From the NCBI GenBank assembly GCA_947371915.1, contig CANBRM010000011.1:1-46180 (forward strand): a stretch of DNA of 46,180 nucleotides. Reading direction: 5' to 3'. Shown in pieces: positions 43,442-46,180 of the stretch. A program made the translations under genes and the position numbers. Numbering within the stretch: the first letter of the stretch is position 1; every line of letters starts with the position of its first letter. The notes beneath the pieces were generated by a model, which was not told where the DNA came from, did not search any database, and saw only the letters and a list, made by a program, of their open reading frames with translations. The DNA is from Comamonadaceae bacterium (lineage in GTDB: Bacteria; Pseudomonadota; Gammaproteobacteria; Burkholderiales; Burkholderiaceae_C).

Positions 43442-43765
43442 ATGTCTAAATTTCTGATCTTGACCACGCTGAGCGTTTCATTGATGCTCGGCATTGCGCA
43501 TGCCGACGAAGAGAAAGCGCCGCGCAAAAACAAAATGGGCCAGTGCCAAGCGCAAGCTGGTGATAAAAAAGGCGATGAGCGCAAGGCCTTCATGAAAGAA
43601 TGCCTGAGCGCCAAAGCTAGCCCTACCGATGGCGACAAGGCCAGCGACAAGAGGAGCGAAAAGAACCCAGAACAGGCCGCCAAAACCAAAGCCTGTAAGG
43701 CCCAAGCCAAAGGCCTCAAAGGCGACGAACGCAAAGCCAAGATAAGCGAGTGCTTGAAAGCCTGA
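43442..43765 (+). CDS. PsiF-repeat secreted protein
   Basis: 107 residues from the ATG at 43442 with a TAGGAG ribosome site. A signal peptide ends near IAHA-DEE. The mature part has two PsiF-type repeats: NKMGQCQAQAGDKKGDERKAFMKECLSAK and TKACKAQAKGLKGDERKAKISECLKA, each with two Cys, joined by a Lys/Ser/Asp-rich linker. Named after a phosphate-starvation-inducible Escherichia coli protein; its role is unknown. It abuts the convergent DUF2063 gene with no spacing between the two stop codons (43763-43768). Confidence 0.83.
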   Translation: MSKFLILTTLSVSLMLGIAHADEEKAPRKNKMGQCQAQAGDKKGDERKAFMKECLSAKASPTDGDKASDKRSEKNPEQAAKTKACKAQAKGLKGDERKAKISECLKA

Positions 43766-44521
43766 TCAGGCCGCCATCTTCCCGCCCAAGATCACGCCTT
43801 CGCGCTGGTATTGCGCCAGCAAATCGGGCCCATAGCTCAACAGGTCTTCGGGGTTCGGGTGTTGCAACCAGACAGCCATGGCTTTGAACGCTTGGCTGCC
43901 TGTCATCCCCTCATTGAACAAAGACAGTAACTGCCCGCGAAACACGTTGCTCGGCACCACTTGCACCGCGCCGTCCACGTCACGCAGCACTGACACATAA
44001 GTGGCCTGCATCTCATCGGGGCGGTGATCCAAATCGATGATGTCCACGGGCCAGTCGTAAGTCACCTCGACATAAGTCGGGTTCATCACCACGACGTGTG
44101 TCATCAAATCAGCGGTGACGTCCACCGCCACACCCGGTTGCGGCAAGACCAAGGCAGAGGTTGCCACTGCGCCTTTGAGCCATTCGAAATGCGAGACATC
44201 TTTGAGCCAGGCGGGCAAGTTTTGCGTCTCAGGACTCTCACGCAAAAAGCGCGCAAACTCCAACAAAACGGTACGTGGCCAAGGCGCTTTCGCTGGATAG
44301 TCACGCAGAAAGTAACGCACCGCAGCGCGCCAAGCCCAGTCGCCCAGCAACCCCCGCGTCACCGGATAAGCGGGATTCACGATGTCACACAAGTTTTTAA
44401 ACATCGCGCGCTCGTACGTGGCCGCCTGTTCAGCCGATACGCCAACAGGCAAGGGCATCGTGTGTGGGTCACGTAAATGGCGCGCCAACGCAAACTGAAA
44501 TTCACGGAAATCGTTCAACAT
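43766..44521 (-). CDS. DUF2063/HvfC-like partner protein
   Basis: 251 residues. The N-terminal DUF2063 pattern is clear: DFREFQFALARHLRD, SAEQAATYERAMFKNLCDIVNPAYPVTRGLLGDWAWRAAVRYFLRDYP and LLEFARFLRE. DUF2063 (HvfC/BufC) proteins partner DUF692 MNIO enzymes in making copper- or metal-binding modified peptides, presenting the precursor to the enzyme. The start overlaps the stop of the DUF692 gene by 7 bases, confirming the pairing. The C-terminal half is longer than needed for a minimal RRE-like domain and ends with WLQHPNPEDLLSYGPDLL. Confidence 0.82.
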   Translation of the reverse strand: MLNDFREFQFALARHLRDPHTMPLPVGVSAEQAATYERAMFKNLCDIVNPAYPVTRGLLGDWAWRAAVRYFLRDYPAKAPWPRTVLLEFARFLRESPETQNLPAWLKDVSHFEWLKGAVATSALVLPQPGVAVDVTADLMTHVVVMNPTYVEVTYDWPVDIIDLDHRPDEMQATYVSVLRDVDGAVQVVPSNVFRGQLLSLFNEGMTGSQAFKAMAVWLQHPNPEDLLSYGPDLLAQYQREGVILGGKMAA

Positions 44522-45348
44522 GCCACAGCCTTTGTGGAAGTCGACACGGCCGCATCGGACCAGCGCTTGAGTTGTGCCAAATCATCCACGCACACAGGGA
44601 CGTCGGGTTTCAAGTGTGACAACACGGCGGGTAACAATCGCCCAGCCACCGAGCTCAATGAGGCTTCGGCATGACCGCCCTCCTCGCCCCCTAAACGCAC
44701 GTAATTCACATGCTGCATGGGCAGCGCAGCCAAGAACTGCAACGCATCGAAATCGTACCGATGGCTGTTTTCAGCCAACGCCGTGATGTCTAAATGCACA
44801 TGGCAACCCGTTTGCGTGACCAATGCGCTGATGAACTCAGCCTCATTCATGGCGGACATGGGCGGCACTGCATGGTGCGACACGTTGCGAATACCGATCG
44901 AATGGCCCAAGGTATCTTGCACGCGCATGATGCGATCTGCGGTCCATTGCAACGCGGCGGTTGTGGCTGGAATTGGCAAACAGGTGAACAACGGGGTGTC
45001 GTCATCGCTCCAACTCAAAGCCTCCGAGAACATCACCATCTCATAGTCGCGCATGAACGCCGCCAGCTGGCTGACCAGCCCCGTGTCCAAACGCCCAGGG
45101 CCACCCAGTGAAAGACTTCGACTCACGCATACACTGGGCCAACGCTGCGTGGCTTCACGCAACCGCTGCCCCCATGGTCCGCCTAGGCCCAACCACTGTT
45201 CGGCCGCCACTTCAATAAATTGAAGATCATCGGGCTCAGGCAACGCCAAATGGGCGCGCAAAGCAGCATCCGAAACGTGAGCGGGGTGTATGGCAATGGG
45301 GGCCGGCTTGAGCACCAAGCCGGTGCCTGTGATTCTGTGATTGTTCAT
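44515..45348 (-). CDS. DUF692 (MNIO-fold) protein lacking the usual metal ligands
   Basis: 277 residues. Family landmarks can be aligned along the TIM-barrel: ITGTGLVLKP, LQFIEVAAEQWLGLGGP, LSLGGPGRLD, FSEALSWSDDDTPLFTCLPIP, HSIGIRNVSHH, CHVHLDITALAENSHRYDFDALQFLAALP and NYVRLGG. The residues that are metal ligands in normal members are changed here: the HGVGLS histidine is replaced, SEHL is SEAL, LEN is IRN, DVNN is DITA, and HLAG is RLGG. It is therefore probably not a standard multinuclear iron oxidase but a pseudoenzyme or divergent relative. It is coupled to a DUF2063 gene and divergent from an ECF sigma factor. Confidence 0.72.
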   Translation of the reverse strand: MNNHRITGTGLVLKPAPIAIHPAHVSDAALRAHLALPEPDDLQFIEVAAEQWLGLGGPWGQRLREATQRWPSVCVSRSLSLGGPGRLDTGLVSQLAAFMRDYEMVMFSEALSWSDDDTPLFTCLPIPATTAALQWTADRIMRVQDTLGHSIGIRNVSHHAVPPMSAMNEAEFISALVTQTGCHVHLDITALAENSHRYDFDALQFLAALPMQHVNYVRLGGEEGGHAEASLSSVAGRLLPAVLSHLKPDVPVCVDDLAQLKRWSDAAVSTSTKAVAC

Positions 45349-45398
45349 AGCTCGTTTTGTAGCAAGGGGTAGCCGATAAATGGGCCTGAGTGACTAAA

Positions 45399-45424
45399 TT
45401 CGACGCGAAGACCACTTTCGTTAC
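45399..45424 (-). promoter_or_regulatory. Candidate ECF promoter of the DUF692-DUF2063 operon
   Basis: On the minus strand GTAACG-N16-CGAA is found, the -10 CGAA (45399-45402) lying about 50 bases before the DUF692 start. From memory, the Caulobacter SigF consensus is GTAACC-N16-CGAA, so this differs at one base. The adjacent sigma gene encodes the same kind of ECF factor. A GTAACC also occurs on the plus strand at 45451-45456 but without a CGAA at the right distance. Confidence 0.55.
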
Positions 45425-45479
45425 GGAATGGAACGCAAATAACAATCTTTGTAACCAAAACCCCCAATACTAAACAATT

Positions 45480-46040
45480 ATGAATGCGCGACTCCAAATC
45501 ATTGAAGCGGACCTGCACGCCGCTTGGTTGGAGGCGCTGGCGGGTGATGCACCCAGCTACCAAGCGGTCCTGACGCGCTTGAGCGGGCATTTGCGGCTAT
45601 TTTTAAGGCGTCGATTACGGGATAAACCCGAAGATGTGGAAGATTTAGTACAAGAAATATTGTTATCAATACATCAAAAGCGTCATACTTACGATCCAAA
45701 GCAACCGTTAACGGCGTGGATTTACGCCATCGCCCGCTACAAGCTGATCGACCACCTGCGCGCCCAAGCACGACATGACGACAAAAACGACTCAATTGAC
45801 GATTGGCATGACCAACTCTGGATGGTCAGCACCGAAGACGCCGACGCGTCCAAAGCCCATTTGACGCACATGCTCAGCCAATTGCCAGACAAACAACGCC
45901 TCCCGATTGAGCACACCAAGCTCGAAGGGCACACCGTGGCCGAAGCCGCCGAACTCACGGGGCAATCCGAGTCGGCTGTGAAGGTGAACATTCACCGAGG
46001 ACTCAAAGCGCTGGCCAAACTGTACGGAGGTGTCTTTTGA
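45480..46040 (+). CDS. ECF sigma factor (SigF-like, NrsF-linked)
   Basis: 186 residues. Region 2 is LRDKPEDVEDLVQEILLSIHQKRHTYDPKQPLTAWIYAIARYKLIDHLRAQAR and region 4 is LPDKQRLPIEHTKLEGHTVAEAAELTGQSESAVKVNIHRGLKAL, so both DNA-binding parts are complete. The SigF/NrsF group responds to oxidative or metal stress in related bacteria and controls DUF692/DUF2063 clusters. The ATG has no ribosome site in the AT-rich leader. The next gene, overlapping by TTGA, encodes the anti-sigma factor. Confidence 0.9.
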   Translation: MNARLQIIEADLHAAWLEALAGDAPSYQAVLTRLSGHLRLFLRRRLRDKPEDVEDLVQEILLSIHQKRHTYDPKQPLTAWIYAIARYKLIDHLRAQARHDDKNDSIDDWHDQLWMVSTEDADASKAHLTHMLSQLPDKQRLPIEHTKLEGHTVAEAAELTGQSESAVKVNIHRGLKALAKLYGGVF

Positions 46041-46180
46041 AAACCCATGATTTCATTGCCCAGCTGGTGGCAGACAGCCAATCGGTGGCCCCCGTGCGCA
46101 TTCACCTGCTGTTCACCCACGCGCTGTTGCTGGCCAGCTTGGTGAGCGTGACTTTGCTGCTGGTGTTTTGGGGCATTGAT
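46037..46180 (+). CDS. NrsF-type (DUF1109) anti-sigma factor, 5' part only
   Basis: The first 48 codons, starting with TTG in a TTGA overlap with the sigma-factor stop (46037-46040) and running to the window edge. The text MKTHDFIAQLVADSQSVAPVRIHLLFTHALLLASLVSVTLLLVFWGID fits the DUF1109/NrsF start: a short cytosolic helix and then the first membrane helix. NrsF holds the ECF sigma at the membrane and is thought to sense stress through membrane-helix cysteines, which are outside the window. Confidence 0.75.
   Translation, partial: MKTHDFIAQLVADSQSVAPVRIHLLFTHALLLASLVSVTLLLVFWGID

Follow-up and report, generated by a model that had tools for sequence, protein, structure and literature searches.

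A DUF692/MNIO protein of Limnohabitans with most iron ligands lost, retained together with its HvfC-type partner

Introduction

DUF692 genes are used for finding copper-binding RiPPs, and the locus studied here raises the question of what such a gene encodes when most of the residues expected to bind iron are gone. The window (the whole stretch of DNA analysed, 46,180 nucleotides) is the whole of contig C11 in a 207-contig assembly (genome G000) with an estimated completeness of 83.5%. Its last part carries the following features.

43766..44521, minus strand: HvfC-like partner (DUF2063 plus C-terminal NGO1945_C domain), 251 aa; PF09836 at 56 bits, PF22106 at 52 bits
44515..45348, minus strand: degenerate DUF692/MNIO protein (group B), 277 aa, ATG to stop; from the open reading frame, PF05114 and the ligand alignment
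45395..45425, minus strand: SigF/ECF16-type promoter-like site, CGTAAC-N17-CGAATTTA, in front of the DUF692 gene
45480..46040, plus strand: ECF sigma factor, 186 aa; Pfam Sigma70_r2 and r4_2
46037..46180, plus strand: start of an NrsF-like anti-sigma gene, cut by the contig end; the remainder lies on contig C190 and lacks both conserved cysteines

Results

Identity and iron-ligand positions of the DUF692 protein

The window DUF692 protein matched PF05114 with an E value of 4.6e-44 (151 bits against a cut-off of 25, the aligned part covering only residues 38–223 of 277), which makes it by descent a member of the DUF692/MNIO superfamily. Its best NCBIfam model was HvfB (NF003818), where it reached 169.1 bits, below the equivalog cut-off of 360; the canonical proteins of G003 and of the sister-genus genome G169 scored 393.8 and 380.7 bits, respectively. 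The closest solved structures were 3bww (E = 3e-33), for which a preprint reports a diiron cluster (PMC13419390), and TglH, 8hci (E = 2e-7).

Nine residues are given as the iron ligands of TglH (H71, H107, E151, D184, N187, H216, D229, H231 and E258; PMC10880893), and alignment placed H61, H96, E140, D173, N176, H204, D218, H220 and E248 of the canonical Limnohabitans protein at the same positions. There the window protein has V75, A110, R154, D187, A190, R218, two deletions and D255, that is, one ligand unchanged (the Asp, D187), one changed from Glu to Asp (D255), five substituted (V, A, R, A, R) and two deleted. Measured against the nine iron ligands of a functional MNIO, seven are lost. 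The whole D-T/S-H ligand loop is deleted, and the last ligand Glu is replaced by Asp (CVDD against CLERD). The original prediction that nearly every metal-ligand position is changed was thus borne out down to the single motifs: SEHL has become SEAL, (I/L)EN has become IRN, D(V/I)NN has become DITA and H(V/L)AG has become RLGG, and the His of HG(L/V)xLS is gone, with V75 at that position; the Asp of DITA is itself the ligand that is kept. Ligands present in shifted positions had been named as the finding that would overturn this reading, and they did not appear, since a profile-profile alignment (E = 4e-55) maintained the ligand register. An AlphaFold2 model, for which the input was the protein and one relative, had a mean pLDDT of 43, too low to support a structural reading.

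Distribution of the degenerate proteins

In the genus Limnohabitans, PF05114 gave 24 matches in 15 of 84 genomes. Upon reading the ligand positions of all 24, we found that 12 keep nine of nine, that one, cut by a contig end, keeps the six that are visible, and that 11 are degenerate. Nine of the degenerate proteins form group B, found in 9 of the 84 genomes (G000, G002, G003, G006, G027, G028, G029, G061 and G076); their residues at the ligand positions are V or L, A, R, D, A, R, deleted, deleted and D, so that every one of the nine has one ligand unchanged, one Glu-to-Asp change and seven lost. The sister form, group C, has H, Q, S, D, A, L or M, P, R, and Q or M, and all statements on it rest on two genomes (G034 and G053). 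Orthologues with the same changes as the window protein, for which the original prediction had proposed a search, were therefore found, and as A110, R154, D187, A190, R218 and D255 are identical in all nine group-B proteins, the changes are more than chance.

The DUF692 tree, with 9 of the 24 loci L050–L073 as outgroups and the other 15, which came from minus-strand matches, left out, placed groups B and C in one clade (support 100/99) beside the canonical Limnohabitans and G169 proteins, among which the branching was not resolved. The DUF2063 partner tree, in which the canonical sequence of G006 ends early at an in-frame stop, its frame being shorter than the others, likewise united B and C (97/100). 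The sigma tree, which lacks G064 because of a length filter, was poorly resolved. All nine ligands were present in each of 18 canonical proteins and again in each of 18 further ones, read for ligands only, from 14 of the remaining 15 L050–L073 loci (L055 having been removed by a filter) and from L133–L136.

When the group-B profile was run against drawn samples of 399 family and 399 order genomes, scores above 400 bits were reached by group B only, and the next matches stood at 249 bits or lower. The outside matches read for ligands (G169, G132, 23 of the 24 loci, and G585, G689, G829 and G742) all keep the nine, and separately degenerate MNIOs elsewhere may be among the other outside matches. 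Limnohabitans sp. B9-3 has a locus with an 81% identical protein. Scans of viral contigs gave no relative of the window protein, and among 347 matched plasmid records none was at or above 60% identity.

D184 of TglH corresponds to the single ligand kept in all 11 degenerate proteins. The TglH D184A variant is reported to be insoluble, and several other single variants to retain some activity (PMC10880893). The kept residue probably has a structural role, as its conservation suggests, which fits a protein keeping its fold without catalysis. H158, H185, D187 and D255 are conserved in the degenerate protein and could serve another site. A C-terminal Cys is also common to the nine group-B proteins; in the window its TGT codon lies within the 7-nt ATGTTGA overlap with the partner start (44515–44521). 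We set it aside as a functional sign because of this position: the overlap itself may be what keeps the residue.

Selection on the degenerate gene

Of 36 pairs of the degenerate DUF692 gene, 34 had an NG86 dN/dS of 0.03–0.34 and two an unresolved dS; dS exceeds 1 in many distant pairs, whose values are indicative only. Between the window and G002, the ratio was 0.20 for the DUF692 gene, 0.12 for the partner, 0.12 for the sigma factor, 0.06 for YifB and 0.17 for the part of NrsF on C190. The genes of the window lineage are constrained, the DUF692 gene the least among those compared.

The ligand columns were not lost preferentially at a significant level (8 of 9 against 15 of 26 other columns invariant in canonical proteins, p = 0.12), and we do not count this as a signal. 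The lost ligand columns differ in what became of them: of the six that are aligned, five hold a single residue throughout, as does only 1 of the 13 other lost columns (p = 0.003, from a hand count made after the data had been seen), so that the pocket looks rebuilt or locked, not drifting.

The partner gene, the neighbourhood and the search for a precursor

The coupling to an HvfC-like DUF2063 partner, as originally described, was confirmed: the start of the partner gene overlaps the stop of the DUF692 gene by 7 nt in the window, and the coordinates agree in all nine group-B genomes. The partner scored 161.9 bits against the NCBIfam HvfC equivalog (NF050145), above the cut-off of 142, and this model matched the partners of all 11 degenerate genes. 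The canonical HvfC of G006 (L028 9780–10523, minus strand) has a frame about 24 codons shorter than those of G003, G028 and G029. A lone DUF2063 gene in G041 (L123 4603–5929), followed by a gene that looks DoxX-type by eye, in a genome with no PF05114 match, was considered as a relative of the partner locus and dismissed, its setting being different.

In four of the nine group-B genomes (G003, G006, G028 and G029), an intact HvfABCX-type cluster adjoins the degenerate pair. The YifB-MetH locus of these genomes holds precursor, HvfB, HvfC, HvfX and sigma/NrsF, followed by the degenerate pair in the same direction. In G003, HvfB, HvfC and HvfX were above the NCBIfam cut-offs, and the precursor passed the KCGExKCG domain model and missed the HvfA equivalog (36 of 95 bits). 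Such a cluster stands at the same place in G169, where the degenerate pair is absent from the 15 kb read. Among the four genomes, dS was lower for the intact HvfB (0.17–0.43) than for the degenerate DUF692 gene (0.95–1.57), but the adjoining MetH was also low (0.35–0.57), and we make no claim that the intact cluster was transferred recently.

In each of the other five genomes (G000, G002, G027, G061 and G076), PF05114 and PF09836 match only once, both within the degenerate pair. The pair stands with sigma/NrsF alone in the window and in G002, and has no NrsF match (PF06532) in G027, G061 and G076. Estimated completeness is 100% for G002 and G027 and 80–84% for G000, G061 and G076. No precursor or HvfX gene was found in the window or in the 19-kb stretch of G002. 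With the G003 precursor as query, there was no match at E 0.1 in G000, G027, G061 and G076, and the best in G002 had an E value of 0.09. PF10048 had no match in any of 11 genomes. As the Cys-rich precursor of G053 and G034 likewise escapes this model, other precursor types are possible in the five genomes. This second Cys-rich type gave only weak matches in G000 (E = 0.014 and 0.049), and its matches in G000, G002, G027 and G061 taken together (E = 0.014–0.1, 31–40% identity, several running over stops) were not credited. For the types searched, the 83.5% complete window genome thus lacks the known-type precursor, linked or unlinked, that marks a bufferin or oxazolin cluster. The original prediction of a RiPP-type cluster holds by descent only: the window has neither precursor nor HvfX, its genome, at that completeness, has no HvfA-like precursor, and its NrsF is atypical.

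Two further observations concern possible substrates and clusters. A protein of the PsiF family (PF07769) is encoded at 43442–43765 of the window (plus strand), convergent to the HvfC-like gene and ending 1 base before it; its N-terminus is signal-like and it contains several Cys. It was rejected as a substrate, PF07769 occurring in only 2 of 11 genomes (G000 and G061, both at this locus). G034 (contig C69, L036) and G053 (contig C270, L038) have a separate cluster of intact MNIO, sigma/NrsF and the Cys-rich precursor that PF10048 misses.

Sigma factor, anti-sigma factor and promoter-like site

An adjoining ECF sigma/NrsF pair had also been foreseen, and it is present, with NrsF starting at about 46037. 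Caulobacter NrsF has two cysteines, C131 and C181; changing them to Ser is reported to raise SigF-dependent expression, and the double variant to show no further stress induction (PMC3511200). Both conserved cysteines were present in nine of nine NrsF of canonical clusters and absent from all four of the degenerate lineage (groups B and C), which share an insertion of 18–19 residues before the first Cys position. G002 NrsF scored 71.9 bits against AntiSigF_NrsF (NF042994), for which the cut-off is 300. The degenerate lineage hence departs from SigF-NrsF systems in the two cysteines that characterize them, and as the enzyme has lost its ligands, sensor and enzyme have lost thiol or metal residues in the same lineage. 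The unit of sigma factor and pair may be constitutive or sense another signal.

The Caulobacter SigF promoter is described as GTAACC-N16-CGAA (PMC3511200), and the Sinorhizobium RpoE7 promoters listed, one of them of a DUF692-DUF2063 operon, have GTAAC and CGAAT at equal spacing (PMC6180224). The pattern YGTAAC-N17-CGAATTNA, which was written after the sites had been seen, occurred once each in G000, G002, G034 and G053, before the degenerate gene, once in G006, before the precursor, and not in the six other genomes; the reversed control gave 1 hit in the 11 genomes. The looser GTAAC-N17-CGAAT had 3, 1, 2, 1 and 1 sites in G000, G002, G034, G053 and G027, against 3, 5, 2, 7 and 3 for the reversed control, so that there is no general excess. 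The core motif directed at the target genes was perfect at all four degenerate loci with a sigma factor and at four of five canonical loci (G169 has one mismatch). The core motif directed at the sigma gene was perfect at five of five canonical and none of the four degenerate loci. The seven group-B genes that are not beside a sigma factor of their own had at least 2 mismatches to the core motif. Instead of the GTAAC site, these seven (L027–L033) share another upstream block, approximately TTTGCAAATTCGTTT..TCATGTTCT, with CGAA following after 12 bases.

Discussion

Ligand loss and purifying selection, beside a stress-type switch of its own in a freshwater bacterium, suggest that the protein has turned to a use other than the original one. 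We consider it very likely that it performs no MNIO chemistry, because single HvfB variants at predicted site-3 ligands are reported to be inactive (PMC13419390) and seven ligands are gone here. As a counterpoint, loss of a single ligand need not kill an MNIO: some TglH variants keep activity, and PesH is described as active despite the absent HxD Fe3 motif (PMC13060819). A pseudoenzyme, as the original prediction had put forward, would still be the best reading of the degenerate MNIO. What is read directly from the sequences is the ligand loss, the fixed new residues, the purifying selection, the partner overlap, the promoter-like site and the NrsF change; the reading that we find the most probable, if by no means secure, is that the MNIO pseudoenzyme and its own partner work as a non-catalytic, peptide-binding heterodimer.

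On this reading, the HvfB-descended protein would be unable to build the iron centre and so would carry out no oxidative cysteine chemistry. It would be made together with its own HvfC-type partner, the two presumably still forming a heterodimer, and the C-terminal (RRE-type) domain of the partner may still hold a segment like a leader or signal peptide. The pair could then sequester or present an exported peptide without catalysis. In the window lineage, the adjacent ECF sigma factor would transcribe the pair from the promoter-like site, and with both conserved cysteines missing from NrsF, we would expect either constitutive expression of the unit or induction by a signal other than the canonical heavy-metal one. 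Against this reading, no obvious ligand is offered by the five genomes that lack an intact cluster.

The fixed residues bear on a rival reading, close to the new chemistry that the original prediction named as its alternative, in which Arg154, Arg218, Asp187 and Asp255 (with His158 and His185 near in sequence) serve a different reaction, or bind a small molecule, with the MNIO iron centre gone. Former ligand columns that are fixed and not drifting, strong purifying selection and retention in five genomes without an intact cluster would all follow from such a repurposed site, but sister group C differs there (Q, S, L/M, Q/M) and two Arg beside the kept Asp could be mere salt bridges filling an emptied site, so that we hold it to be rather unlikely. 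A wider form of the idea, which we regard as equally tentative, is that in one lineage the whole stress module (ECF sigma, anti-sigma, MNIO and partner) took on a new role together: with two cysteines lost from the sensor and the iron site from the enzyme, the main target of the sigma switch would be an iron-free MNIO fold, its Arg/Asp pocket rebuilt for a new ligand or reaction and kept after the RiPP pathway had gone. Simple decay of a gene left over after loss of the hvf cluster would account for the window locus without precursor, intact MNIO or HvfX and for the patchy distribution in 9 of 84 genomes, but open frames in all nine, a low dN/dS (0.20 between the window and G002) and the retained 7-nt overlap and promoter-like site make it scarcely credible.

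PesX, an MNIO-like protein without iron-binding residues from the nitrilobacillin pes cluster, is reported to inhibit in vitro by competing with an active MNIO for its partner (PMC13060819), and the window protein might similarly damp peptide maturation by drawing the HvfC partner away from active HvfB. With an active-looking HvfB next door, such competition could apply in four of the nine genomes and not in the other five, as these have no further PF05114 gene; moreover, all nine degenerate proteins have an overlapping partner of their own, which diverged along with them, and we judge the explanation improbable. Feedback of the pair on the adjacent sigma/NrsF would suit the window, G002, G034 and G053, where the pair is adjacent and divergent to the sigma gene with a promoter-like site before it; G027, G061 and G076 keep the pair, yet no NrsF (PF06532) was found in them (only G027 being estimated as 100% complete), which renders this very improbable.

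Compared with known systems, the non-catalytic pair resembles HvfB-HvfC, the oxazolin maturase of an MNIO and a DUF2063/RRE partner that works with HvfA and HvfX, in its best NCBIfam model and in a partner above the HvfC cut-off, and four relatives have an HvfABCX-type cluster in the same YifB-MetH locus; it is unlike HvfB-HvfC in its score far below the HvfB cut-off, in its lost ligands and in a locus without precursor and HvfX. The likeness to PesX extends to a gene adjoining that of an MNIO partner, and PesX (a 2026 preprint, PMC13060819) is an MNIO pseudoenzyme already described. Its homologues are given there only from pes-like clusters, which also encode the active MNIO PesH. Compared with this description, the window protein differs in being recognisable by sequence, in having its own overlapping partner and in occurring in genomes without another MNIO. 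As for the regulation, the SigF-NrsF regulon of Caulobacter crescentus and the RpoE7 regulon of Sinorhizobium meliloti are reported to have an ECF sigma factor and an NrsF-type anti-sigma before DUF692-DUF2063 genes, with the same promoter core (PMC3511200, PMC6180224, PMC8224329). The degenerate lineage is unlike SigF-NrsF in its cysteine-free, extended NrsF and in the missing perfect copy of the sigma-directed motif.

The main text of the landscape paper (PMC12452194) does not contain the words degenerate, inactive or pseudoenzyme, and in the open-access literature searched, we found nothing on the degenerate Limnohabitans lineage. What is new here is that a likely MNIO pseudoenzyme is kept even by genomes in which no active MNIO is present, and that the sensor changed along with it. 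A neighbourhood of DUF692, DUF2063 and ECF sigma/NrsF genes can be without iron ligands, precursor and sensor cysteines, as this clade shows, and RiPP calls made from it need a ligand check. The close relatives, which differ in what accompanies the pair (an intact cluster, only sigma/NrsF, or neither of these), offer a natural comparison for studying what a pair of MNIO and partner does without catalysis.

Another open reading frame was seen near the pair in some relatives. In G003 (L027 9554–10747) and G029 (L031 10321–11514), an opposite-strand frame of 397 aa lies between the intact cluster and the degenerate pair, and a similar frame of 399 aa precedes the degenerate pair in G027.
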